33,289 nucleotides of DNA from Sneathiellales bacterium (lineage in GTDB: Bacteria; Pseudomonadota; Alphaproteobacteria; JANQFL01), in the NCBI GenBank assembly GCA_028277845.1, contig JANQFL010000017.1:1-33289 (forward strand), in the 5' to 3' direction. The notes under the pieces were generated by a model. The model was not told the DNA's origin and did not search any database. It saw nothing but the letters and a program-made list of their open reading frames with translations. A program made the translations under genes and the position numbers. Every line of letters starts with the position of its first letter. Position 1 is the stretch's first letter. This document shows positions 6,412 through 18,025 of this stretch, piece by piece.

Positions 6412-7293
6412 ATGGCAACAATGGACCAGCCGCGACCCGTGGTCACGCGGTTTGCACCGAGCCCGACAGGGTTCCTGCACCTGGGCCATGCCTATGCCGC
6501 CCTGGTCGCCCATGACGAGGCCCGGCGCGCCGGCGGGCGCTTCCTGTTGCGCATCGAGGATATCGATGTCGGCCGCTGCCGGCCGGAATTCGAGCGCGCC
6601 ATCATCGAGGACCTGCAATGGCTCGGGCTGGAGTGGGACGGCCCCATGCAGCGCCAGTCGCAGAACCAGATGGGCTATGCCCGCGCCCTGCAGGAGCTGG
6701 CCAGGCTCGATGTGGTCTACCCCTGCTTCTGCACCCGCAAGGAGATCCGCGAGGAACTGAAACGCAGCCACGCCGCGCCCCACGGCCTGGACGGCATGAT
6801 CTACCCCGGCACCTGCCGGGTGCTGGGCCGCGAGGTCTGGCGTGCCCGCCTGGATGCCGGCGAGCCCCATGCCCTGCGGCTCGACAGCTTCCGCGCCATC
6901 GCCTTCGCCGAATCGGAACGGGGCGGGCCGTTCACCTGGCACGACCGCCACGCCGGCAACGTGACCTGCGATCCGAGCCCCCTGGGCGACGTGGTGCTGG
7001 CACGCAAGGACGTGCCGAACAGCTACCACCTGTCGGTCACCGTCGACGACGCCCTGCAGGGCGTGACCCTGGTGACCCGCGGCAAGGACCTGTTTTCCGC
7101 CACCCATATCCATCGGCTGCTGCAGGCCCTGCTGGGCTACGAGGCACCCGACTATTACCACCACAAACTGATCACCAACGAACACGGCGAGCGGCTGTCA
7201 AAGCGCGACGAGGCGATGACGCTCAGGCAAATGCGCGCCGCCGGAGTCACGCCCGACGATATCCGGGAAACGTTGGGCCTGGTGCAGGCCTAG
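6412..7293 (+). CDS. gluQ: Glutamyl-Q tRNA(Asp) synthetase
   Basis: A 293-residue truncated glutamyl-tRNA synthetase paralogue that attaches glutamate to queuosine in tRNA-Asp. The Rossmann core is complete: RFAPSPTGFLHLGHA with the HIGH-like signature at residues 23-26, and a KMSKS-like RLSKR at 261-265. Cysteines around 103-105 (CFCTR) and the YPGTCR segment form the zinc site seen in GluQ. The anticodon-binding domain of GltX is absent, which with the length of about 290 marks GluQ rather than GltX. The ATG at 6412 follows a GA-rich site (AGAGGGGG). It ends three bases before the convergent sulfatase gene. Confidence 0.95.
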   Translation: MATMDQPRPVVTRFAPSPTGFLHLGHAYAALVAHDEARRAGGRFLLRIEDIDVGRCRPEFERAIIEDLQWLGLEWDGPMQRQSQNQMGYARALQELARLDVVYPCFCTRKEIREELKRSHAAPHGLDGMIYPGTCRVLGREVWRARLDAGEPHALRLDSFRAIAFAESERGGPFTWHDRHAGNVTCDPSPLGDVVLARKDVPNSYHLSVTVDDALQGVTLVTRGKDLFSATHIHRLLQALLGYEAPDYYHHKLITNEHGERLSKRDEAMTLRQMRAAGVTPDDIRETLGLVQA

Positions 7294-7296
7294 CCG

Positions 7297-8871
7297 CTAC
7301 CAGACGCCGAACAGATAGCCGCGCTTTTTGGCCGTGCCGGTGGCCCTGTCCAAGTCTTCGTCCGAGCGCGTGGTGCGCAGACGCCGGGTCCTTGCCCAGT
7401 CGAACATGCGCCGTTCCATCTCCCGGCGCACCTCGGCATGGGCGTTGGAGCGGCCCAGGTCGACCCGTTCCTGTGGATCGGCCTCCAGGTCGAACAGCAT
7501 CGGCGGATGCTTCTCGAACATGACGTACTTCCAGCGCTCGGTGCGGACCATGTAGCCCCGCGCCTCGACCGGTTCGAGGCCAAGGGTGCGGCGCGCCGTG
7601 CGCAGGGCGAAATCGGAATCGGCGAAGACGGCATCGCGCCAGCCTTTCACGGCACCGCCGTCCAGCAACGGTACGATGGAGCGGCCTTCCAGCCGGTGGG
7701 GATGGGCCGCGCCGCCGGCCATGTCGAGGAAGGTGGGCACCAGGTCGATGGCCTCGACGAACCGGGTGTCCTGCCGGCCGCGGGTCTTGTCGGCCTGCGG
7801 CCGCGGGTCCATGACGATGAATGGCACCCGCATGACTTCCTCGTGGAACAGGTCCTTCTCGCCCAGCCAATGGTCACCGAGATAGTCACCGTGATCGCTG
7901 GTGACGACGACGACGGTATTGCCGGCGAGGCCCTGGTCCTCGAGGAACGCCATCAGCCGGCCGATGTGATGATCGAGCTGCGTGGTCAGCCCCATGTAGG
8001 TGGGGATGACGGTCTCGCGCACTTCGTCGCGGGCGAAATTGACGCTTTCCTCGTGCCGCATGAAGGCCGCCGTCACCGGGTGCGGATCGTCCCGCTCGGC
8101 CGCCGTCCGATTGGCCGGCAGCATATCGTCCGGTCCGTACATGTCGTTGTAGGGCGCCGGCGCCATGTAGGGCCAGTGCGGTTTGATGTAGCTGAGATGC
8201 AGGCACCAGGGTTGATCGCCGGCGTCGCGGATGAAGTCCATGGCCCGGTCGGTCATGTACGGCGTTTCGGAATGTTCTTCCGCCACCCGGGCCGGCAGGC
8301 GGGCGTTGCGCATGTACCAGCCGCTGACGACCTCGCCGTTTTCGTCGAGCGCCGAGTTGGCGTAGTCGTGCCAGGGATTGTCGCCGTCATAGCCTTGGTC
8401 CCGCAGATAGACGTTGTAGGCCAGGTTGGGATCGGCCGCCTGGTCCGGGTGCAGGCCGTCGTCCCGTTCATAAGGCTCGAAGCCGCATTCCCGGGCGAAC
8501 ACGCCGGCCGACGAGCCGGGATCGATGCCCAGTTTGGCGAAGGTGGCGTCGTCCGCCTTCATGTGGGTCTTGCCCACCAGCGCCACCCGGTAACCCAGCG
8601 GCCGCAGAAAGTCGCCCAGCGTGCGTTCGTCCACCCGCAGGGGGATGTTGTTGTAATGGGCCCCGTGGCTGAAGGCGTACCGCCCGGTGTAGAACGACAT
8701 GCGCGAACCGCCGCATACCGGCGCCTGCACATAGGCGCGGGTAAAGGCGACGCCGCGGGCCGCCAGGGCGTCCATGTGCGGGGTCCTGATGGCCGGATGG
8801 CCGTAACAGGCCAGGTAGTCGGCCCGTAACTGGTCGGCCATGATGAACAGGAAGTTGGGGGATCGGGACAT
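7297..8871 (-). CDS. Sulfatase-superfamily hydrolase with variant active-site motif
   Basis: A 524-residue alkaline phosphatase/sulfatase-fold hydrolase. Metal and substrate positions are recognisable: Asp13 (MADQLRADYL), Lys101/His103 (VGKTHM), Lys230/His232 (KPHWPY), and Asp326-His327 (SDHGDYLGDH). The nucleophile motif, normally C-x-P-x-R or C-x-A-x-R for conversion of the cysteine to formylglycine, reads Cys53-Gly-Gly-Ser-Arg, so the proline is replaced by glycine. It resembles sulfatase and phosphonate monoester hydrolase groups; the substrate is unknown. There is no signal peptide, so it probably acts in the cytoplasm. No sulfatase-maturing enzyme is in the window. Confidence 0.9.
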   Translation of the reverse strand: MSRSPNFLFIMADQLRADYLACYGHPAIRTPHMDALAARGVAFTRAYVQAPVCGGSRMSFYTGRYAFSHGAHYNNIPLRVDERTLGDFLRPLGYRVALVGKTHMKADDATFAKLGIDPGSSAGVFARECGFEPYERDDGLHPDQAADPNLAYNVYLRDQGYDGDNPWHDYANSALDENGEVVSGWYMRNARLPARVAEEHSETPYMTDRAMDFIRDAGDQPWCLHLSYIKPHWPYMAPAPYNDMYGPDDMLPANRTAAERDDPHPVTAAFMRHEESVNFARDEVRETVIPTYMGLTTQLDHHIGRLMAFLEDQGLAGNTVVVVTSDHGDYLGDHWLGEKDLFHEEVMRVPFIVMDPRPQADKTRGRQDTRFVEAIDLVPTFLDMAGGAAHPHRLEGRSIVPLLDGGAVKGWRDAVFADSDFALRTARRTLGLEPVEARGYMVRTERWKYVMFEKHPPMLFDLEADPQERVDLGRSNAHAEVRREMERRMFDWARTRRLRTTRSDEDLDRATGTAKKRGYLFGVW

Positions 8872-8952
8872 GCGTACGCCTTACGCCTGTAATGACAAAA
8901 AAACGCCACACCGATTGACGGCGGGCACGGCGGCAGCTTAGCCCTGAACGAA

Positions 8953-8976
8953 CGAAGGGCGCAAACGCGCCCTTCG
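8953..8976 (-). terminator. Hairpin after the VWA gene
   Basis: Bases 8953-8962 and 8967-8976 are perfect 10-base inverted copies with an AAAC loop. The hairpin lies 24 bases beyond the stop of the VWA-protein gene on the minus strand and before the sulfatase start, a sensible terminator position. A good T-run is lacking. Confidence 0.55.
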
Positions 8977-8999
8977 CCAGTCCCCCCTCCCGATCGGCT

Positions 9000-10652
9000 C
9001 TATTTCATGCTTTGCGCCAGGCGCACAAGCTGGACGAACTCGCCACGGTAGCCGAACGGGTCGTCGCCGCGGGCGTTGCGGGCCAGGTTGAGCACGGACT
9101 GGTAGCCGAAGCGTTCATCCACCTGGGTTTCGTCGCGCAGCATCTGGCCGAAACCGGCCACCGCCAGCGAGAACCGCACGTCCTTGGTCGCCGCCGCGAT
9201 CGTTTGGTGTTCATGCTGCCGGGTGACAGCGTGCTGCAGCAACCGGCTCTTGCTCTCTCCGGGTTTCTTGTAGCGCACCTTGACATAGGCATATTCGCCG
9301 GACGGCGCCGGCTTGGCGTCATCGGAACGGTTCGCCTGATAACGCAAGGGCTCGAGCCGCCGTGCCGTGCTCTCGGCCGGGGTGATTTCGAAGATCGCCG
9401 TAACGGTGTGGCCGCTGCCGATCTCGCCGGCGTCGATGCGGTCGTTCTTGAAATCCTGGCGCCGCAGCATGCGGGTTTCGAAACCGACCAGCCGGTACTC
9501 GGCGACCCGGGCCGGATTGAACTCCACCTGGAATTTCACGTCGTCGGCGATGGGGTAGAGATTGCGGTTGAGTTCGTCGTCCATCACCTTGCGGGCCTCG
9601 AGCAGGGTATCCACATAGGCGGCGTTGCCGTTGCCCATCTGGGCAATCTTCTGCATCAGCCGGTCATTGAGATTGCCGCTGCCGAAACCGATGGCGGAGA
9701 GATAGATGCCCGACTTGCGCTTGGCGGCGACGAAGCGGCCGAGCGCCTTGGGATCGGCGATACCCAGGTTGAAATCGCCGTCGGTGGCCAGAATGATCCG
9801 GTTGACCGACGTGTCGGCGAAGTTTTCCTCGGCCATGTCGTAGGCGAGCTGCAGCCCGGCGCCGCCGGCGGTACCGCCGCCCGCCTGCAGATCTTCGATG
9901 GCGCGGATGATCTTGTGCCGCCGGTCCGCCGCCGTCGGTTCGAGCACGACCTTGGTGCCGCCGGCATAGGTGACGAGCGACACCATGTCGTCCGGCCGCA
10001 ACGACTTGACCAGTATGCGCAGGGATTTCTTCACCAGCGGCAGCTTGTTGGGTGCGTGCATGGAGCCGGAGACGTCGACCAGGAACACCAGGTTGGCCTT
10101 GGGCCGCTGTTCGGCGGACAGGCCGTGGCCCTTGATGCCGATGTGCAGCAATTTGCTGTCCGCATTCCATGGCGAGGGCAGCACGGCGGTGGTGATCTGG
10201 AACGGCTGATCGAGGGTGTCCGGCACCGGATAGTCGTAGTCGAAATAGTTGACCATCTCCTCGACCCGCACCGCGTCGGCCGGCGGCATGTGGCCTGCGC
10301 GCAACATGCGCCGGATGTTGGCGTAGGCCGCCGTGTCCACGTCGGCGCTGAAGGTGGCGACCGGTTGCTCTTCCGTCAAATGGACCGGATTGGTGACGAA
10401 CGGTTCGTATTGCTCACGGTCCGCCGGCTGGGCGAACAGGGCGAGCCGCGCGGAAGACGGTGCCGCCTTGGCCGTCTGTTCCGCGGCCGGCACCCCACGA
10501 TGCGCCATGCTTTTGGTCTCGGGCGGTGTTTGGTTACACCCGGTGACGATGGCCGCCGTCAAGGCCATCAGGATCGGTGTGGACAGAAACCAGGCAAATC
10601 GCCGACTGCCTTGGTCCTGGCCGTCGGAGAAAAACAAAAACCCCTGCTGCAT
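9000..10652 (-). CDS. VWA-domain lipoprotein, YfbK-like
   Basis: A 550-residue protein with a predicted lipoprotein signal (hydrophobic stretch about 20-38, then IVTGC with lipidated Cys39). After a linker comes a YfbK-type N-terminal region (ADVDTAAYANIRRML, about 103-117), a von Willebrand factor A domain with the metal-binding DxSxS at Asp193-Ser197 (LVDVSGSM) and ATDGDF further on, then the C-terminal YfbK region ending with GYRGEFVQLVRLA. These proteins are envelope-anchored and thought to mediate protein contacts; no precise role is established. The ATG at 10652 follows AGGGGGT. No MoxR ATPase gene is adjacent. Confidence 0.93.
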   Translation of the reverse strand: MQQGFLFFSDGQDQGSRRFAWFLSTPILMALTAAIVTGCNQTPPETKSMAHRGVPAAEQTAKAAPSSARLALFAQPADREQYEPFVTNPVHLTEEQPVATFSADVDTAAYANIRRMLRAGHMPPADAVRVEEMVNYFDYDYPVPDTLDQPFQITTAVLPSPWNADSKLLHIGIKGHGLSAEQRPKANLVFLVDVSGSMHAPNKLPLVKKSLRILVKSLRPDDMVSLVTYAGGTKVVLEPTAADRRHKIIRAIEDLQAGGGTAGGAGLQLAYDMAEENFADTSVNRIILATDGDFNLGIADPKALGRFVAAKRKSGIYLSAIGFGSGNLNDRLMQKIAQMGNGNAAYVDTLLEARKVMDDELNRNLYPIADDVKFQVEFNPARVAEYRLVGFETRMLRRQDFKNDRIDAGEIGSGHTVTAIFEITPAESTARRLEPLRYQANRSDDAKPAPSGEYAYVKVRYKKPGESKSRLLQHAVTRQHEHQTIAAATKDVRFSLAVAGFGQMLRDETQVDERFGYQSVLNLARNARGDDPFGYRGEFVQLVRLAQSMK

Positions 10653-10839
10653 GATTACCCCCTAAAGAATTGGTTCATGACAGCCCCTCCGCCGGTGACA
10701 GTCACCACCTTTCAAGGCCAAGCCGGGGCGGGAATAAGGAGAGTTTGTGGCAAGCGCCGCCCATCGGAGGTTGCTTCCCTTGACTCCGCCCACATGGGCC
10801 AACATGTAGCCAGGAAACCAACCAGTCACCGGAGCACCC

Positions 10840-11601
10840 ATGACCAGCCCAACCGACCTGCCCTCATCCGAGACCATCCGCGTCCTGCACGACCGGGTCA
10901 GCGTGCGGCGTTTCAGCGAAAAAGATGTCTCCGAGGATCACGTCGAAGCCGTTCTGCGCGCCGCCTTCCGCGCGCCGACATCGTCCAACATCCAGTCCTA
11001 CAGCGTCATCATCGTGCGCGACGCAGACACCAAGGCGGCACTGGCAACGGCCGCCGGCAACCAGGGCCATGTAGCGCGCACGCCGGTGTTTCTCGCCTTC
11101 TGCGCCGATCTCACCCGCATCGAACTGGCCTCAAAACGCAACGGCCACGAACTGGCGGACAACAACCTGGAGGTCGGCCTGGTGTCGTCCATCGATGCCT
11201 CCCTGGTCGGCATGGCGGCCTACATGGCGGCGGATTCGCTCGGACTGAAAGGGGTGATGATCGGCGGCGTGCGCAACAACCCGCGCGACGTCGCCCGCAT
11301 CCTCGGTCTGCCGCACCGGGTCTATTGCGTCTACGGCATGTGCCTGGGCTGGCCGGCGGAAACACCGGCGCAGAAACCACGCATGGACTACCAATACGTG
11401 GTGCACCGGGAACGCTACGACGAGGCGGCGACCGCCGCCGCCGTCGACGCCTACGACCCGGCCCTGGCCGCCCATTACCGGGCCAGCGGCCGCCAGACCA
11501 CCGACGATTCCTGGTCCCACGACATGGCCGCCAAGTTCCATCCGCCGCTGCGCGACAATCTGCGCGCCGATCTGAAATCGCTGGGTTTCGATTTTCGGTA
11601 G
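10840..11601 (+). CDS. NfsA-like NAD(P)H-dependent nitroreductase
   Basis: A 253-residue FMN-dependent nitroreductase of the oxygen-insensitive NfsA/FRP group, which transfers two electrons from NADPH to nitroaromatics, quinones or flavin. FMN-contacting segments are SVRRF (residues 21-25), FRAPTSSNIQ (43-52) and GGVRNNP around 146. The C-terminal extension (SWSHDMAAKFHPPLRDNLRA) fits the NfsA-type arrangement. The ATG at 10840 follows a purine-rich site. It is divergent from the VWA gene with a 187-base gap and converges with the EEP-fold gene. Confidence 0.93.
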   Translation: MTSPTDLPSSETIRVLHDRVSVRRFSEKDVSEDHVEAVLRAAFRAPTSSNIQSYSVIIVRDADTKAALATAAGNQGHVARTPVFLAFCADLTRIELASKRNGHELADNNLEVGLVSSIDASLVGMAAYMAADSLGLKGVMIGGVRNNPRDVARILGLPHRVYCVYGMCLGWPAETPAQKPRMDYQYVVHRERYDEAATAAAVDAYDPALAAHYRASGRQTTDDSWSHDMAAKFHPPLRDNLRADLKSLGFDFR

Positions 11602-11621
11602 CCGGAAATTTCTACGCCGCT

Positions 11622-12716
11622 CTATCGCTTCTTCAGTCCCTTCAGGTAGTGATCCGTGAAGTCGACCCGAAGCTGCACCCACATGGGCATGTGATCGGAC
11701 ATCTGCCAGGTGCGCCATTCCTTGCGGTAATACGCTTGTTTTTCCGCATCATTGCGGGCAAGCCCCTTCTTTTTGCCTTTGGCATGAAAGTCCCGGAGTT
11801 TGGGCCGCATTTTGGCGAAGTAGGATATATAGTCTTGGTCCCGATAGACGGACTGAAAAATGTCAAAAACGCCCGAGGCGCCGATCTCCAATAGTTTGTT
11901 GGTAACGCGCAGGGCGATCTGGTCGTAGTGCATGTTGCGCTCCAGATTGGTTTTTTCCTTACGCAAGTTTTCCGGCACAAGGAAGTCCTGCTTTTCCAGC
12001 GCTTCCATGGTTGCGTCTTCGGGGCGGACGATATTGAAATCGCCGAGCAGAATATAATCTTCCTTTTCCTTTTCCTGCCGTTCGACGAAGAACTTGGCCA
12101 CGGCCTCGATCTCCTTGACCCGGCGCCAATAGGGTTGCCCGGATTTGGCCCCGTAGTAGATGTGCACTGTGCATAGATTGAATTTGAACCAGCCAGCCTG
12201 AAAGGCGGCAACGAACGGCGTGCGGGCGAACTGCAATTGCTTTGTCGCCTTCTTGTCGCCTTTCGTTTCGACGATTTTTCGTCCGGCCTTCAGCACGACT
12301 TCGCCTGCCATGTTGCGAAACTGGATCTTGCGGGTGTCGTAGACAAAGGCGAGCCGCTCCTGATTTCCTCCCGCCCCTTCCGTGGTATCGGTGACGATGA
12401 AGTCCCAACGATCTCCGAGCAGGTCCATGACCTTTCGAAGAGCCACGAGGTCGCGGTTGATTTCCTGCAGCGCTACCAGTTCGAATGCAGAGATGATTTC
12501 GGCGATATAATGAAACGCTTCCGGTTCACGATAACCGTGACCGAATTTGTCGGAATCGAAATCGCGGATGTTCCAGGTCGCCAACAAGAACGAGTCCTCA
12601 GACTGATAAGGGACGATCTCGTCACGCAATTGCTGGCGCAAAGCGAGCAGCCGGTCGACCGCACGATTTTGGTCTTTGGCGGTCTTGATATCCCGTAACG
12701 GATAGTACCGAGGCAT
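11622..12716 (-). CDS. Endonuclease/exonuclease/phosphatase-fold protein
   Basis: A 364-residue EEP-superfamily (DNase I-like) hydrolase. All core motifs are in order: Asn49 in ATWNIRDF, Glu85 in LQEI, His185 in TVHIYYG, Asp226 and Asn228 in LLGDFNI, and Asp341-His342 in SDHMPMW. This intact set predicts a metal-dependent phosphodiesterase or phosphatase; whether it cuts nucleic acid or a phospholipid or inositol headgroup cannot be told. A lysine-rich insertion lies around 305-330. There is no signal peptide, unlike its two upstream partners. The ATG at 12716 is preceded by AAAGGA. It is the last gene of a three-gene minus-strand operon, 20 bases after the giant lipoprotein gene. Confidence 0.9.
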   Translation of the reverse strand: MPRYYPLRDIKTAKDQNRAVDRLLALRQQLRDEIVPYQSEDSFLLATWNIRDFDSDKFGHGYREPEAFHYIAEIISAFELVALQEINRDLVALRKVMDLLGDRWDFIVTDTTEGAGGNQERLAFVYDTRKIQFRNMAGEVVLKAGRKIVETKGDKKATKQLQFARTPFVAAFQAGWFKFNLCTVHIYYGAKSGQPYWRRVKEIEAVAKFFVERQEKEKEDYILLGDFNIVRPEDATMEALEKQDFLVPENLRKEKTNLERNMHYDQIALRVTNKLLEIGASGVFDIFQSVYRDQDYISYFAKMRPKLRDFHAKGKKKGLARNDAEKQAYYRKEWRTWQMSDHMPMWVQLRVDFTDHYLKGLKKR

Positions 12717-12736
12717 GGCGTTGTCCTTTCCGTTCT

Positions 12737-15700
12737 TCAGCCGCCCGCGCCCTGCGAATTGCCGGCGAAGATGATGGCGGACTCGAACTCCTTCAACGCC
12801 TGCTCGCGCTGGCCGGAGATTTTGAGGATCAGGCCGCCGACGATTTGATTGAACGCCGAGGTGAGCTCGCGGCGGTGGGAGAGAATTTTGTCTTTCTCTG
12901 CCTGCTTTGCTTCAAGCTGGGACATGTTGTCCTTCAGAACCCCCTCCTGTTCGACCTTCTCCCGTTCTTTCGTTTCCAGATTGGTTCTTGCAGTAGTGTC
13001 TTCTGGATTGCTGGCAACTTGGCTTTTCAATTCGGTGATGGAGCCCTCCAGTTTGGCAATCGACTCGTTTGAACTGGTGATCGTCTCGTTCAGCTCGGCA
13101 ATACTGGTGTCTTGAGCCGTCGTACCCGTGTTTTCCAGCACCCTCCCGAGTAGGGCCTTCCGATAGGTTTCGACGTGGCGAAGCGCCGTGCGCGTGGCCT
13201 CACTCATGTCTTCCGCTTCCTCGCGGCGCCGGTCACGCAGTGCGGCGGTATCGTCGCCAGCACCGGCCGTTGAGAACACCCGGACCTGCTCGAGCGCGCT
13301 TTTTGCATCGGTCAATCCACCGACCTCGCCCGCCGGTTCTTCACCCAGAGTGCTTTCCCAACGCGACGTCACGGCGTTCTCGAGACCGCCGTCCCGAACG
13401 GTGCCACGCAACTCATCGTAGCTGCCCTTGGTCGCGTTCTCATATCGCTCCTCGTGATGAGCGACGATGCGGCGGAGCGTTTCGTTGCCACCGGCCGAGC
13501 GTTCACGCAGCTGGGTCATCTCGTCCCGGTCTGCCTGAGAAAAGCTTGCTGGATCGTTCGCTTCTCTTCGCCGCAGTTCATTGAGCCGCAACAGATTGGT
13601 GTTGAGTTGTCCGCCGAGATTAAACAGGGCCAGCGACTGGGCCGACCTAATCAGCTGTTCCGGGTCGGCGCTGTACGACTTGACCCGCCAGTTGCCGATA
13701 TCGTCCTTGATCAACGCATAGTTGGTTGTGCCGCCACCGGCGACCCGGACCGTATTGATGTTCTGCCAGAACTGCTGGTCGATTTTTTGCTGAATCGCGA
13801 CGGCAGCCTTGTCTTCGTTGACGATGCTCTCGCCTAGGAATGGGAACAATTTGTACCCTTGCCGCGCCAGCGTGTTCTCCCAACCCAGTCCCGGATTCTT
13901 TTGCAGCAACGGGGCCGGGTAACTGCTGCGCAGATAGGCGCTGGGTGGCCTGATATAGACCATGCCGGCGCGCTGCTCGAAGGCGGTCTTGATGGCCTTT
14001 TCCAAGAAGACCGCGCGTCCGCTATCGCCGCTTTCCCGTTTGGCCTGGATCAACTCGTGCCGTAAGGAGGCTATGACGCCATCGAGCACGTCGATCTTTT
14101 TCTGTTCGCACATTTGCGCACTCAGCCCCTCGCACATGGGGCCAAACGGCGCAAAGTCCGCCGGTGACGTGACTAGGTTTTTTAATTCTTTGCGTAGCGC
14201 GTTCATCCCGGTGACCTGATCGGTGGCGGATTGATCCGCGAGGGAGGCAACTTGTGAACCGTGCGCCGGCAGCGGGGCCGTCGTAACATCCTTTTTCATC
14301 TTCGTCTGGGCACCCTCGGCCGATCCGGTTTCCGCCGTGATTACCTGTTCCAGTGCCCGGTAGACGGCGCTTGGGTCACCCACCGTTTCGTCCCGCAGCA
14401 TCCGATCCAGCACTGTTGGTTTGACCGTCTCGTACGCCTTCACCACGCTTTCGGCCACGTTCTGTTTTACCAGGGTCTCCTGGGCGGCGGCGTCGAAGTC
14501 ACGAATCGCTAGAGCCGAGGCAGCCTGCGTCCGATAGGCCGTGTCGAACTTCTTTGCGACCCAGGCCGTCAACGCGGCCATCGCCGTTACCGGGGGTTTC
14601 ATCTCGCCGCCGAAGGGATCGCCTTTTATCTCCGCCAACAGATGCTGCAAGTGAACCAGCTCATCCTTTTGCGTCTGACTCGGTTTCTTGATCTCCGCAT
14701 CGATGACCTTGACGACGGATTCGAGGGCATCCCTTCCGGCAACGAGGCCTCTATTAGGTCCGTCCTCGGCTATTTTCGCTGCATCGATTGCCGTCATGAA
14801 CGACGCTTGCACGGCCTGCAATAAGGCATCTGCCGCCGTTATGAGCGTTTGATCGGTCCGCACAGGCATCGGCGCCAAATCGCATTCCTTTGCCGTTGAT
14901 CCCTTGCCGCACCACGGGGGCTGAACAAATTTCGCATCCAGCGACCGGCCTTGCATGAGAGACAGGGCATGCACGAGTTTAAGCAACACCGGCTGGCCTT
15001 CGGCATGCGCGGAGGTCAGCGCCTTCCTACTGTCGACATCATTAGCGCTTTCGGCCGTTTCCCGGGCCGTGCTGGCCCGCGCGGAGAACGTCCTGTGCAA
15101 TTCATCCAGCACATCCCGGGCGTTCTTCACCGTCGCTGACTTCACTGCTTGAATCTCATTCGCCGCGGCGGTGCGGCTGGCGGCCTTGGCCTGATACGCC
15201 GCCCGCTGATGCAACTCGTCCGCCTGGATGAGAATCGAATTGCCCACGGCCTGCAGGACGATGACGTAGCGCCGCAAGTCCTCTTTCGACAGGCCGGACT
15301 GATCGGAGTCGGGGTTCGTCAAAAGCTCGTGATTGGCGGTCGACAGGATCTTCTGTGAAAAATGAATCAACGCGTCCGAAAGTCTGCGAAACGATTCGTC
15401 GACGTTATGGAGGTCGCACTTGCCGATTTCACATTTGCGTTTTTTGTGCGACGCCGTACGAAACTGTTCGATGAGGGTGAACAGACCGTCTTTCAGTCGG
15501 CCTTTTTGAAAAGACTGGCCAGCGTGAAGATTTGTTGCTGTTTCCGATAAAGCATCTCCGATGCGCTTGCTTTCCATCTTGCCAGTATGGCCACCAAACG
15601 CTCTTACGATGCCGAAACGCCGTAGTTTTGCAGTTCTCCGCCCCTTCGGATATCGAACGACAACCGATCTTTCGGATCGGTACAGCGCGTCACGGTTGGC

Positions 15701-16972
15701 GAGCAGTTTCGCCGTGCCACGGGCGTCTGCATGAAAACGGCGTAATATGGCGTTATCAGCAGCTTCATAGTCGGCTCTCTCCCACTTTTTGCGCGACTTG
15801 GTCGCAAACGGACGCAGTTCGGGGAAAACAAATGAATAGGAGGCCCGTTCAGCGGAAACCAATTCGGGTTGGTGGGTCATCCAGGTCACGAATTGAATGG
15901 CACTCTCCAACGCCGCCGCATGACCGGGCGTCCGTCTGTCCTGTCCCGGCGCATCCAATGCCGCGATGAGGTCGAGGCCCGCCAGCCACAAGGCGTGACT
16001 GGCATGACGAATATCGATCAGCGCTTGAGCAGCATCGATGATTGGCGATTCGACTTTGTCTTCGAATGCATCATCGTCAGAAGGAAAAAACACCGGCCTA
16101 AAGTTCCGATGCACGAATTTTCGGTCAATAAGAAGATCGATCCGTTCGGTGCCTGAATGCGTCTCATCCAACGCAAACACCGGATACCCGTGTGTATTCG
16201 CGAATATGTACCTGGATTCGCGATAGTGACCATTCGGATCAATGAATTCCTTCAGACCTATCAGTTTGCCGCACAGATCTAGGTCGTCTTTGCATTTCGA
16301 CCGTTGGCCAGTAAGCACGGCGCCTCGATCGGCGTTGGTCAATCCGGAAACACCATCGATCATCATCCGCCAGACCAGCGAATCTCGGCCACGGTCGACG
16401 TTCCATATGTCTTCGGCCTGGCTGCGCGTTTCGTTGATCTTAGTGAGCTTTTCAAGAAACTCTTTGGAGCCTGGCAGCTTGCTCTCGATATTCTGATCGT
16501 CATACAGGGTCAGAATGGCATTGACCCGACGAGCCCGGTCATTTTGAAAACACTGCGGCAACATCTGGTCGTGGCTGTAGGTCTCGCAATTGATACGGAA
16601 AAACCGGTGATACTTTTTGTAGTCTGTTTCGCCGCAGTTTTTCGGTTCTGTCCCGTCGTCCATATTGGGTGATGGATGCGCGCGATCCATTTTGTTGGCA
16701 TTCGTCTGTAAATCGAAATACCCGACCTGGATACAGCGGCGCACCGACCGGTTGGGCCACTCCAGCGTGTCGCGCAGGTCTGACAAGGTCGGGCGGATGC
16801 CGCTGGCCAGGGCGGCGAGTTGTTGGGCCTGGACCTCTTCGTGGTTGGCCATCGGGCCTTTGTAGACGTCTACGTCGATTTGAAGGGTGGCACAGCCGGA
16901 CAGGACGGAGACACCAGCCATGGCCGTTAATACATGCCGGAGTCGGCTGGCAGAGTGCGAAAAGCTCATCAT
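12737..16972 (-). CDS. Giant predicted lipoprotein, unknown function
   Basis: A 1411-residue protein I do not recognise. It begins with a lipoprotein signal (basic N-terminus, hydrophobic stretch, VLSGC with Cys27 to be lipidated) followed by ATLQIDVDVYKGPM. The body is largely hydrophilic and predicted helical, with several scattered cysteines in the first 750 residues that may form periplasmic disulfides. The last 150 or so residues contain heptad-like repeats (SIAELNETITSSNESIAKLE and onward), a likely coiled coil. No catalytic motif stands out. Its ATG overlaps the preceding gene's stop; a second ATG follows directly. Base use looks less GC-rich than in neighbours. A structural or scaffolding envelope role is a guess. 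Confidence 0.9.
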   Translation of the reverse strand: MMSFSHSASRLRHVLTAMAGVSVLSGCATLQIDVDVYKGPMANHEEVQAQQLAALASGIRPTLSDLRDTLEWPNRSVRRCIQVGYFDLQTNANKMDRAHPSPNMDDGTEPKNCGETDYKKYHRFFRINCETYSHDQMLPQCFQNDRARRVNAILTLYDDQNIESKLPGSKEFLEKLTKINETRSQAEDIWNVDRGRDSLVWRMMIDGVSGLTNADRGAVLTGQRSKCKDDLDLCGKLIGLKEFIDPNGHYRESRYIFANTHGYPVFALDETHSGTERIDLLIDRKFVHRNFRPVFFPSDDDAFEDKVESPIIDAAQALIDIRHASHALWLAGLDLIAALDAPGQDRRTPGHAAALESAIQFVTWMTHQPELVSAERASYSFVFPELRPFATKSRKKWERADYEAADNAILRRFHADARGTAKLLANRDALYRSERSVVVRYPKGRRTAKLRRFGIVRAFGGHTGKMESKRIGDALSETATNLHAGQSFQKGRLKDGLFTLIEQFRTASHKKRKCEIGKCDLHNVDESFRRLSDALIHFSQKILSTANHELLTNPDSDQSGLSKEDLRRYVIVLQAVGNSILIQADELHQRAAYQAKAASRTAAANEIQAVKSATVKNARDVLDELHRTFSARASTARETAESANDVDSRKALTSAHAEGQPVLLKLVHALSLMQGRSLDAKFVQPPWCGKGSTAKECDLAPMPVRTDQTLITAADALLQAVQASFMTAIDAAKIAEDGPNRGLVAGRDALESVVKVIDAEIKKPSQTQKDELVHLQHLLAEIKGDPFGGEMKPPVTAMAALTAWVAKKFDTAYRTQAASALAIRDFDAAAQETLVKQNVAESVVKAYETVKPTVLDRMLRDETVGDPSAVYRALEQVITAETGSAEGAQTKMKKDVTTAPLPAHGSQVASLADQSATDQVTGMNALRKELKNLVTSPADFAPFGPMCEGLSAQMCEQKKIDVLDGVIASLRHELIQAKRESGDSGRAVFLEKAIKTAFEQRAGMVYIRPPSAYLRSSYPAPLLQKNPGLGWENTLARQGYKLFPFLGESIVNEDKAAVAIQQKIDQQFWQNINTVRVAGGGTTNYALIKDDIGNWRVKSYSADPEQLIRSAQSLALFNLGGQLNTNLLRLNELRRREANDPASFSQADRDEMTQLRERSAGGNETLRRIVAHHEERYENATKGSYDELRGTVRDGGLENAVTSRWESTLGEEPAGEVGGLTDAKSALEQVRVFSTAGAGDDTAALRDRRREEAEDMSEATRTALRHVETYRKALLGRVLENTGTTAQDTSIAELNETITSSNESIAKLEGSITELKSQVASNPEDTTARTNLETKEREKVEQEGVLKDNMSQLEAKQAEKDKILSHRRELTSAFNQIVGGLILKISGQREQALKEFESAIIFAGNSQGAGG

Positions 16973-17616
16973 GAACCGCCCTCCAGATTATGCCGCACCG
17001 GCCCGACGACCCGTTCCAATTCTTCGTTTTCGCGCTTTATACGCAGCAGCAGCTGGAACAGCTCCTCATCGGAGATCGCCTTGTCGGTGCCCTGAATGGC
17101 CGACGCGATGGTGCCGACAGACTCATTGACGGAACTAAAAAAGGCATCGGCATTCGATCCCATAACAACCACCAGACGGTGGTTGGCCGGCGCTTCGCGG
17201 AAGCCTTCCGGCCCGAACAGAATCAGGCGGCGGCCGGTCTTGAAATCCTTGATGGATTGATCATTGTCCGGCTTGTCGAACTTGACCTTGCCGCTTTTCT
17301 TGTCGAACGCAATCGACGTGCCCAAGGTGTCGACGAATTCCGCCGGCAGCCAGCCCGAGGCGAAATTGACCGCGCTGATGGCGCTGGCCTGACCGCGCAG
17401 GCGCACCCGGTAGACGGCGGGCGGCACCTGTTCCTGTTCGTCAAATATGCCCAGATAGTAAGTCTGCTCGATTTCGTTGGTCGGCGCCTGGCCACCGATC
17501 ACGGCGGCGCCAACAATACCGAGAGTTATTTTACCTTCGGGTGTATCACAGCCCGCCAGTATCGCACTCAGCGCCAACGCGCAGACCAACCGAAGCCCGT
17601 GTTTCCGGATGCACAC
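16969..17616 (-). CDS. Small predicted lipoprotein, unknown function
   Basis: A 215-residue protein with a lipoprotein signal: basic MCIRKHGLR, a hydrophobic core and ILAGC, with Cys23 as the likely lipidated residue. The following short glycine-rich hydrophobic segment (LGIVGAAVIGG) could insert in a membrane. The middle (YRVRLRGQASAISAVNF, then LILFGPEGFREAP) looks like a beta-rich domain and the C-terminus is helical and charged. I do not recognise the family. The start is GTG at 17616 behind GAGGGGAGGGG. It is the first gene of the operon with the giant lipoprotein, overlapping it by 4 bases. Confidence 0.88.
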   Translation of the reverse strand: MCIRKHGLRLVCALALSAILAGCDTPEGKITLGIVGAAVIGGQAPTNEIEQTYYLGIFDEQEQVPPAVYRVRLRGQASAISAVNFASGWLPAEFVDTLGTSIAFDKKSGKVKFDKPDNDQSIKDFKTGRRLILFGPEGFREAPANHRLVVVMGSNADAFFSSVNESVGTIASAIQGTDKAISDEELFQLLLRIKRENEELERVVGPVRHNLEGGS

Positions 17617-18025
17617 GATCCCCTCCCCTCATATCCCGGTGGTTTCTGAGAGGCGGCCGATAGGCCAGGACCTGTCGCCGAGGGCTCCCGAAACCACTCA
17701 TTTGCCGGCGGACAGCGGATACGCGCTGTTTGAAGCAGGAAATTGTGACGCCGGCTTTGTTCTTTACTCAAAAGTAAAACGCGACGAACGAATAAGACTA
17801 ATGATTGAAAATATGATCGTCAATAATCCATATGAGGGATATTCAAGGACCAACGCCCGCTTTTGATAGGTGAAAGCCTCTCCGTCGGCGAGAAATGCGA
17901 TCGGTAGTCCAGTTTCTTCGGTGGCGGGACCAGGCGGGCGGCGACGCCCCTCGACGATCGGATCCAGGGTGATTACCGTTGAGTTCAAAGGGCGGCGGCA
18001 TTCTGGGCAGGGAGGTCCATCCGTG
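17617..18025. other. 409-base intergenic region, AT-rich in its middle
   Basis: This gap separates the divergent lipoprotein operon and the FAH-family gene, so it should hold promoters for both. The stretch 17740-17870 is clearly richer in A and T than its surroundings. I see no convincing sigma-70 box pair. A minus-strand open frame covers 17764-18042 and is discussed as a finding; I do not call it a gene. Confidence 0.6.

Follow-up and report, generated by a model that had tools for sequence, protein, structure and literature searches.

A conserved pair of putative lipoprotein genes and a neighboring, probable DNase I-like nuclease gene in a Sneathiellales draft genome

The locus described here raises the question of whether three closely spaced genes constitute one envelope-associated system or are merely neighbors. 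The window, i.e., the whole stretch of DNA that was analyzed (33,289 nucleotides), is one whole contig of a 5.39-Mb draft genome of a Sneathiellales bacterium. The initial annotation had recognized in it two predicted lipoproteins and an EEP-fold enzyme, and it suggested that the pairing of a very large envelope scaffold with a hydrolase of the DNase I fold could serve in defense, envelope stress, or lipid signaling. The two lipoprotein genes are referred to below as A and B and the third as the EEP gene.

RESULTS

Organization of the locus

The coupling of the three minus-strand genes was confirmed, with open reading frames of 215, 1411, and 364 amino acids. The end of A and the start of B share 4 bases (ATGA), and B is followed after 20 bases by the EEP gene. 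A purine-rich ribosome-binding site was present at each start (GGAGGGG, GGAGGG, and GGAAAGGA for A, B, and EEP, respectively), and the three genes are probably cotranscribed in the window. The features were as follows.

16969..17616, minus strand: gene A (P0003), small lipoprotein of 215 aa; open reading frame with lipobox LAGC and predicted lipidated Cys23; B is immediately preceded by an A homologue at 17/18 loci
12737..16972, minus strand: gene B (P0002), large lipoprotein of 1411 aa; open reading frame with lipobox LSGC and predicted lipidated Cys27; 4-bp overlap with A
16844..16879, minus strand: B residues 32-43, IDVDVYKGPMAN, a near-invariant signature a few residues after Cys27, found in all B proteins with the N terminus available
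13583..14095, minus strand: B residues ~960-1130, conserved C-terminal core (YIRPPSAYLRSSY ... WQNINTVRVAGGGTTNYALIKDDIGNWRVKSYS), from the alignment of 12 long and short members
12983..13129, minus strand: B residues ~1282-1330, heptad (coiled-coil-like) stretch; z of 3.9 against shuffles, SlyX match at 1285-1330
11622..12716, minus strand: EEP gene (P0001), putative cytoplasmic DNase I-like nuclease of 364 aa; codirectional, 20 bp after B; judged to be a passenger
11602..17869, no strand assigned: low-GC block between the nitroreductase gene (ending at 11601) and the FAA-hydrolase gene (open reading frame from 17870); boundaries inferred

A sulfatase gene (7297-8871) and a gene for a YfbK-type VWA protein (9000-10652) adjoin this block and represent ordinary context. 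Elsewhere in the window, a tRNA-Leu (1874-1960) overlaps the upstream part of a GNAT open reading frame as called, and the tRNA-Gly predicted at 6897-6990 is unusually long (94 nt).

Sequence properties of A and B

Searches of Pfam, NCBIfam, and PADLOC returned no match beyond chance level for A and none for B except a weak match to the coiled-coil-type Pfam family SlyX, and the outcome did not change when the homologues of both proteins were scanned against Pfam. Remote homology to described families was rejected, as the A profile and the conserved B core gave only chance-level or coiled-coil matches to PDB sequences and the family libraries. No enzyme domain was found in either protein by the family-library searches, and the single-sequence structure model of A (pLDDT of 35) had no interpretable fold. 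A literature search for such a lipoprotein pair found nothing, nor was the motif KDDIGNW found in the papers searched. What A and B have in common with described lipoproteins is the general class alone, namely, lipobox-bearing envelope proteins, with a coiled-coil stretch in B. The description of both as lipoproteins of no known family was thus upheld. Judged from their sequences, A and B are undescribed families, and the novelty lies in the families, no new mechanism having been demonstrated.

The relatives were found to be of two types. In the long type, A has 215 to 288 aa and B about 1041 to 1524 aa, and in the short type A has 229 to 663 aa, its two conserved blocks being separated in some members by a long insert, and B has 431 to 777 aa. 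The conserved A blocks, YY...FD...YR.R..GQAS and GPEG.R...RLV, occur in both types. B is only about 30% identical among long types but likewise retains two blocks in both types, VDVYKGP near the lipid anchor and INTV...GNW (IN...GNW) near the C terminus, and the middle between them is very variable in length. Among the 12 aligned long and short members, the invariant residues of the core were W, I-N, G, D, G-N-W, and K. B of the window carries the signature of the pair, with (I/V)(D/E)V(D/E)VYKGP at residues 32 to 40 and WxxIN...GNWxxK at ~1069 to 1098. The C-terminal coiled coil noted initially was supported by the heptad pattern at residues ~1282 to 1330, which was significant (shuffle z of 3.9) and coincided with the weak SlyX match. 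A lipobox was present in A at 17/17 loci (weak in L128) and in B at 16/17; the B relative at L112 (8185-10518) has a signal-peptide-like start without a lipobox cysteine, and the other 16 readable B proteins have one.

Conservation of the A-B pair

The two lipoproteins proved to be a genuine pair. A lies directly upstream of B on the same strand in 17 of the 18 genomes with B, that of the window included, and the two genes overlap, usually by 4 bp, or come close to overlapping. The 18th copy (G280) has lost its upstream part at a contig end. In this copy (L092, ~8620-8872) the B gene is interrupted and the upstream sequence resembles the end of an insertion-sequence transposase, which probably means either that this copy is disrupted or that a repeat lies at the contig end. 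A search in the class detected a B relative of 598 aa in G055, which is preceded by an A relative with a 4-bp overlap. Further carriers are G280, G334 with seven more genomes of its order, four genomes in another class of the phylum, and G809; the count takes in B relatives within reach of the A3/A4 profiles. Of the 18 carriers, one is a Phycisphaerales genome (Phycisphaerales bacterium bin7, CP070678.1), and the others come from one class, in which they span several orders, and from a second class of the same phylum; Rhodospirillaceae bacterium Bin_39_2_2 is also among the carriers.

Neighboring families were not widely common to the A-B neighborhoods, and only the closely related loci L115 and L117 shared theirs. 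The distances of A and B covaried over all pairs (r = 0.93, permutation P = 0.0005); by type, the correlation was strong for the short type (r = 0.92) and weak for the long type (r = 0.31, P = 0.08). From their gene order, A and B appear to be an obligate two-gene module.

Distribution and mobility

The occurrence of A-B was patchy, with 8/61, 4/48, and 2/15 genomes in three orders and four genomes besides that of the window in a phylum-wide sample of 398. The DNA flanking A-B in G789 (L112) was searched for within its own genus, and the two flanks were found to abut in the sister species G784, G786, and G788 (empty sites L139, L140, and L141), with no B match elsewhere in those genomes. The insertion (L112, about 8020-12533) is ~4.5 kb long, holds A and B only, and is flanked by the stop codon of an AraC-type gene on one side and by the apparent terminator of a gene for a BCCT transporter on the other. 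An 8-bp direct repeat, TCAATAAA, marks its two ends and occurs as a single copy in the L141 empty site. This repeat would be consistent with target duplication or with microhomology and does not point to a particular machinery. An inverted repeat near both insertion ends (18 nt, 89%) was one of 37 such pairs in AT-rich DNA and is not claimed. The GC content of A-B at L112 is 41%, nearly as low as that of the host (45%), and the pair therefore need not be freshly arrived there. A viral or plasmid origin was also considered and rejected, as no A or B relative was found in IMG/VR (two pattern scans) or PLSDB (tblastn with two B proteins).

At the window locus itself, the less GC-rich base use noted initially was correct, with 57.7% GC for A+B and 53.6% for the EEP gene against 64.6% for the flanks. 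At each of the 17 loci measured, A+B had a lower GC content than its own flanks, the difference ranging from 0.5 to 14 points. The shift is therefore deduced to belong in part to the gene family itself, and low GC is weak evidence of recent acquisition here; GC alone cannot date the acquisition of A-B. Direct repeats bounding the low-GC block of the window were limited to a 7-mer, which is expected by chance. The suggestion of acquisition is supported for the A-B family, by its patchy occurrence and by the empty site in another genus, and is not demonstrated for the window locus.

Assignment of the EEP protein

The model of P0001 (pLDDT of 89.8) was closest to DNase I among the structures compared (2dnj; Z of 24.6, 2.6 Å over 235 residues, 24% identity), followed by EEPD1, PDE12, TDP2, and sphingomyelinase with Z of about 20.6 to 22.3 (TDP2, about 21; neutral sphingomyelinase, 20.6). 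DNase I/DNase gamma was also the best PDB profile match (E value of 5.5e-12). Residues N49, E85, E120, H185, D226, N228, D265, D341, and H342 were invariant in 35 members, including the SDH motif and the central His. P0001 has counterparts of the DNase I catalytic and metal residues N7, E39, E78, H134, D168, N170, D212, and H252. In the profile alignment, the family aligned with Asn7, Glu39, Glu78, Arg111, Asp168, Asn170, and Asp212 of DNase I, while H185 was two columns off and H342 lay outside the aligned region. Roles have been assigned in DNase I to His134, His252, Glu39, Asp168, and Asp212 (PMC2987838).

No export signal was found in P0001 or in the aligned EEP family, the members of which align from residue 1. 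The initial description of an EEP enzyme with all catalytic residues and no export signal therefore stands. P0001 differs from DNase I in being bacterial, in lacking a signal peptide, and in having an N-terminal helical extension of ~40 aa and inserted loops. Exo_endo_phos and the MnuA and ExeM nuclease models were matched below their curated cutoffs. The nearest named bacterial models were MnuA (NF045851, matched by 31/35 members; P0001 scored 64.3 against a cutoff of 185 bits) and ExeM/NucH (NF033681, matched by 10/35; 30 against 300 bits). MnuA is described as a mycoplasma membrane-associated lipoprotein (PMC11729948), whereas P0001 carries no export signal. Assignment as an MnuA membrane nuclease was rejected on the score and on the lack of a membrane anchor or signal sequence. 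Because the model is closest to DNase I and the invariant active-site residues mostly align with those of DNase I, the EEP protein is most likely a cytoplasmic DNA-directed nuclease.

Relationship of the EEP gene to A-B

The neighborhoods of the 18 A-B loci and of the best 80 EEP relatives were compared, some of the flanks being short. These relatives are 43 to 60% identical and come from many phyla. Neither A nor B was found near any of the 80 within the fetched flanks by tblastn and profile searches with working positive controls, and no neighbor was conserved around the 80 loci beyond related genomes. Conversely, a P0001-type EEP gene was absent from every other A-B locus of the 18. In the order of G334, the EEP family occurs in 3/61 genomes, which include one of the eight A-B genomes (G796), with the gene on another contig. 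The host genome itself has an EEP paralogue, 46% identical, on contig C113 without A-B. That contig holds, near its end, two different EEP-type genes within 2 kb (L087, 5585-6724 and 7526-8662), with GC contents of 49.5% and 48.1% beside genes of 63 to 65%, possibly in an acquired island. At L113 (10061-12268, G773), a distant EEP gene, 27% identical to P0001, lies on the opposite strand, convergent and 6 bp from an A-B pair.

The initial annotation had proposed co-occurrence in other genomes as the check on its operon. The outcome was divided: the A and B homologues are adjacent in 17/18 genomes, and the EEP homologues are scattered. The EEP gene is an ordinary one, belonging to a widespread family.

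DISCUSSION

On these neighborhood data the three-gene A-B-EEP system was rejected, and with it the proposed link between the large scaffold and the hydrolase. The simplest view of the nuclease is that it is a passenger sharing the gene cluster here. That all three genes form one system, in which A-B would be the envelope sensor or scaffold and the EEP protein a cytoplasmic DNase effector, e.g., in defense or stress, was suggested by their tight codirectional spacing, with a ribosome-binding site of its own for the EEP gene, by their common low GC, and by the distant EEP gene adjoining the pair at L113, which may reflect a loose functional link. The L113 gene, however, is no more than 27% identical and is encoded on the opposite strand. 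The absence of A and B from the surroundings of all 80 EEP relatives, the location of the family elsewhere in the one A-B genome of eight that has it in the tested order, and the host paralogue without A-B all speak against such a system, which is considered quite unlikely. A role of A-B alone in the exclusion of phages or superinfection at the envelope would suit its patchiness within orders and genera, its clean stand-alone insertion, its strong divergence (about 30% identity for long-type B), and its predicted envelope anchoring. None of the three proteins matched a PADLOC model, the neighbors elsewhere are mostly housekeeping genes rather than defense islands (110 neighboring open reading frames gave scattered matches, mainly to methyltransferase models), and no relative was found in IMG/VR contigs or plasmids. 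An anti-phage module is held to be unlikely.

The fixed order of A and B with overlap, together with a B protein that is variable outside a conserved C-terminal core, could also be read as a large delivered or surface effector with A as its dedicated chaperone or immunity lipoprotein. Polymorphic toxins usually vary in their C-terminal part, whereas B is most conserved in its C-terminal core; moreover, no toxin domain was matched in B and no secretion apparatus was noticed nearby, making this the least credible of the alternatives, with a very low probability. Both the phage exclusion and the effector roles are weaker than a structural role, which is favored because no catalytic domain was recognized, length is variable, and a conserved motif lies close to the anchor. 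The best explanation overall, held at slightly below even confidence, is that A-B is a structural envelope module and the EEP gene an independent passenger.

From the conserved lipoboxes, both A and B are predicted to be exported and lipid anchored, most likely in one envelope complex. A would be the compact partner domain. B would form a long body, helical and in part coiled coil, that can differ freely in length from lineage to lineage and is fixed at two points, namely, at the anchor by the VDVYKGP segment and farther on by the INTV...DDIGNW core. Most likely, A-B would serve as a structural or surface-layer component of the cell envelope (a spacer, coat, or bridge) useful in some niches only, which would account for its accessory, horizontally moving distribution. 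The EEP gene would have been added behind A-B in the lineage of the window and would act on nucleic acid in the cytoplasm independently. Complex formation, the structural role, cotranscription, and the independence of the EEP gene are what we infer from the data. A-B is thus best read as an accessory, horizontally moving envelope-lipoprotein complex, with the nuclease a passenger here. A further-reaching proposal, put forward tentatively and rated as rather doubtful, regards A-B as an undescribed envelope system that is complete in its two genes. It would travel from class to class and phylum to phylum as a stand-alone cassette of ~4.5 kb and build a lipid-anchored helical structure, periplasmic or on the cell surface, with the variable middle of B, and in short-type pairs also that of A, determining its length.

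The A-B pair sets up two protein families with sharp sequence signatures and a fixed gene order across different classes and at least two phyla. Presence and absence between sister species of one genus mark genes that are useful only conditionally, as in predation, exposure to phage, or surface life, and the empty site provides a natural with-and-without comparison for A-B.
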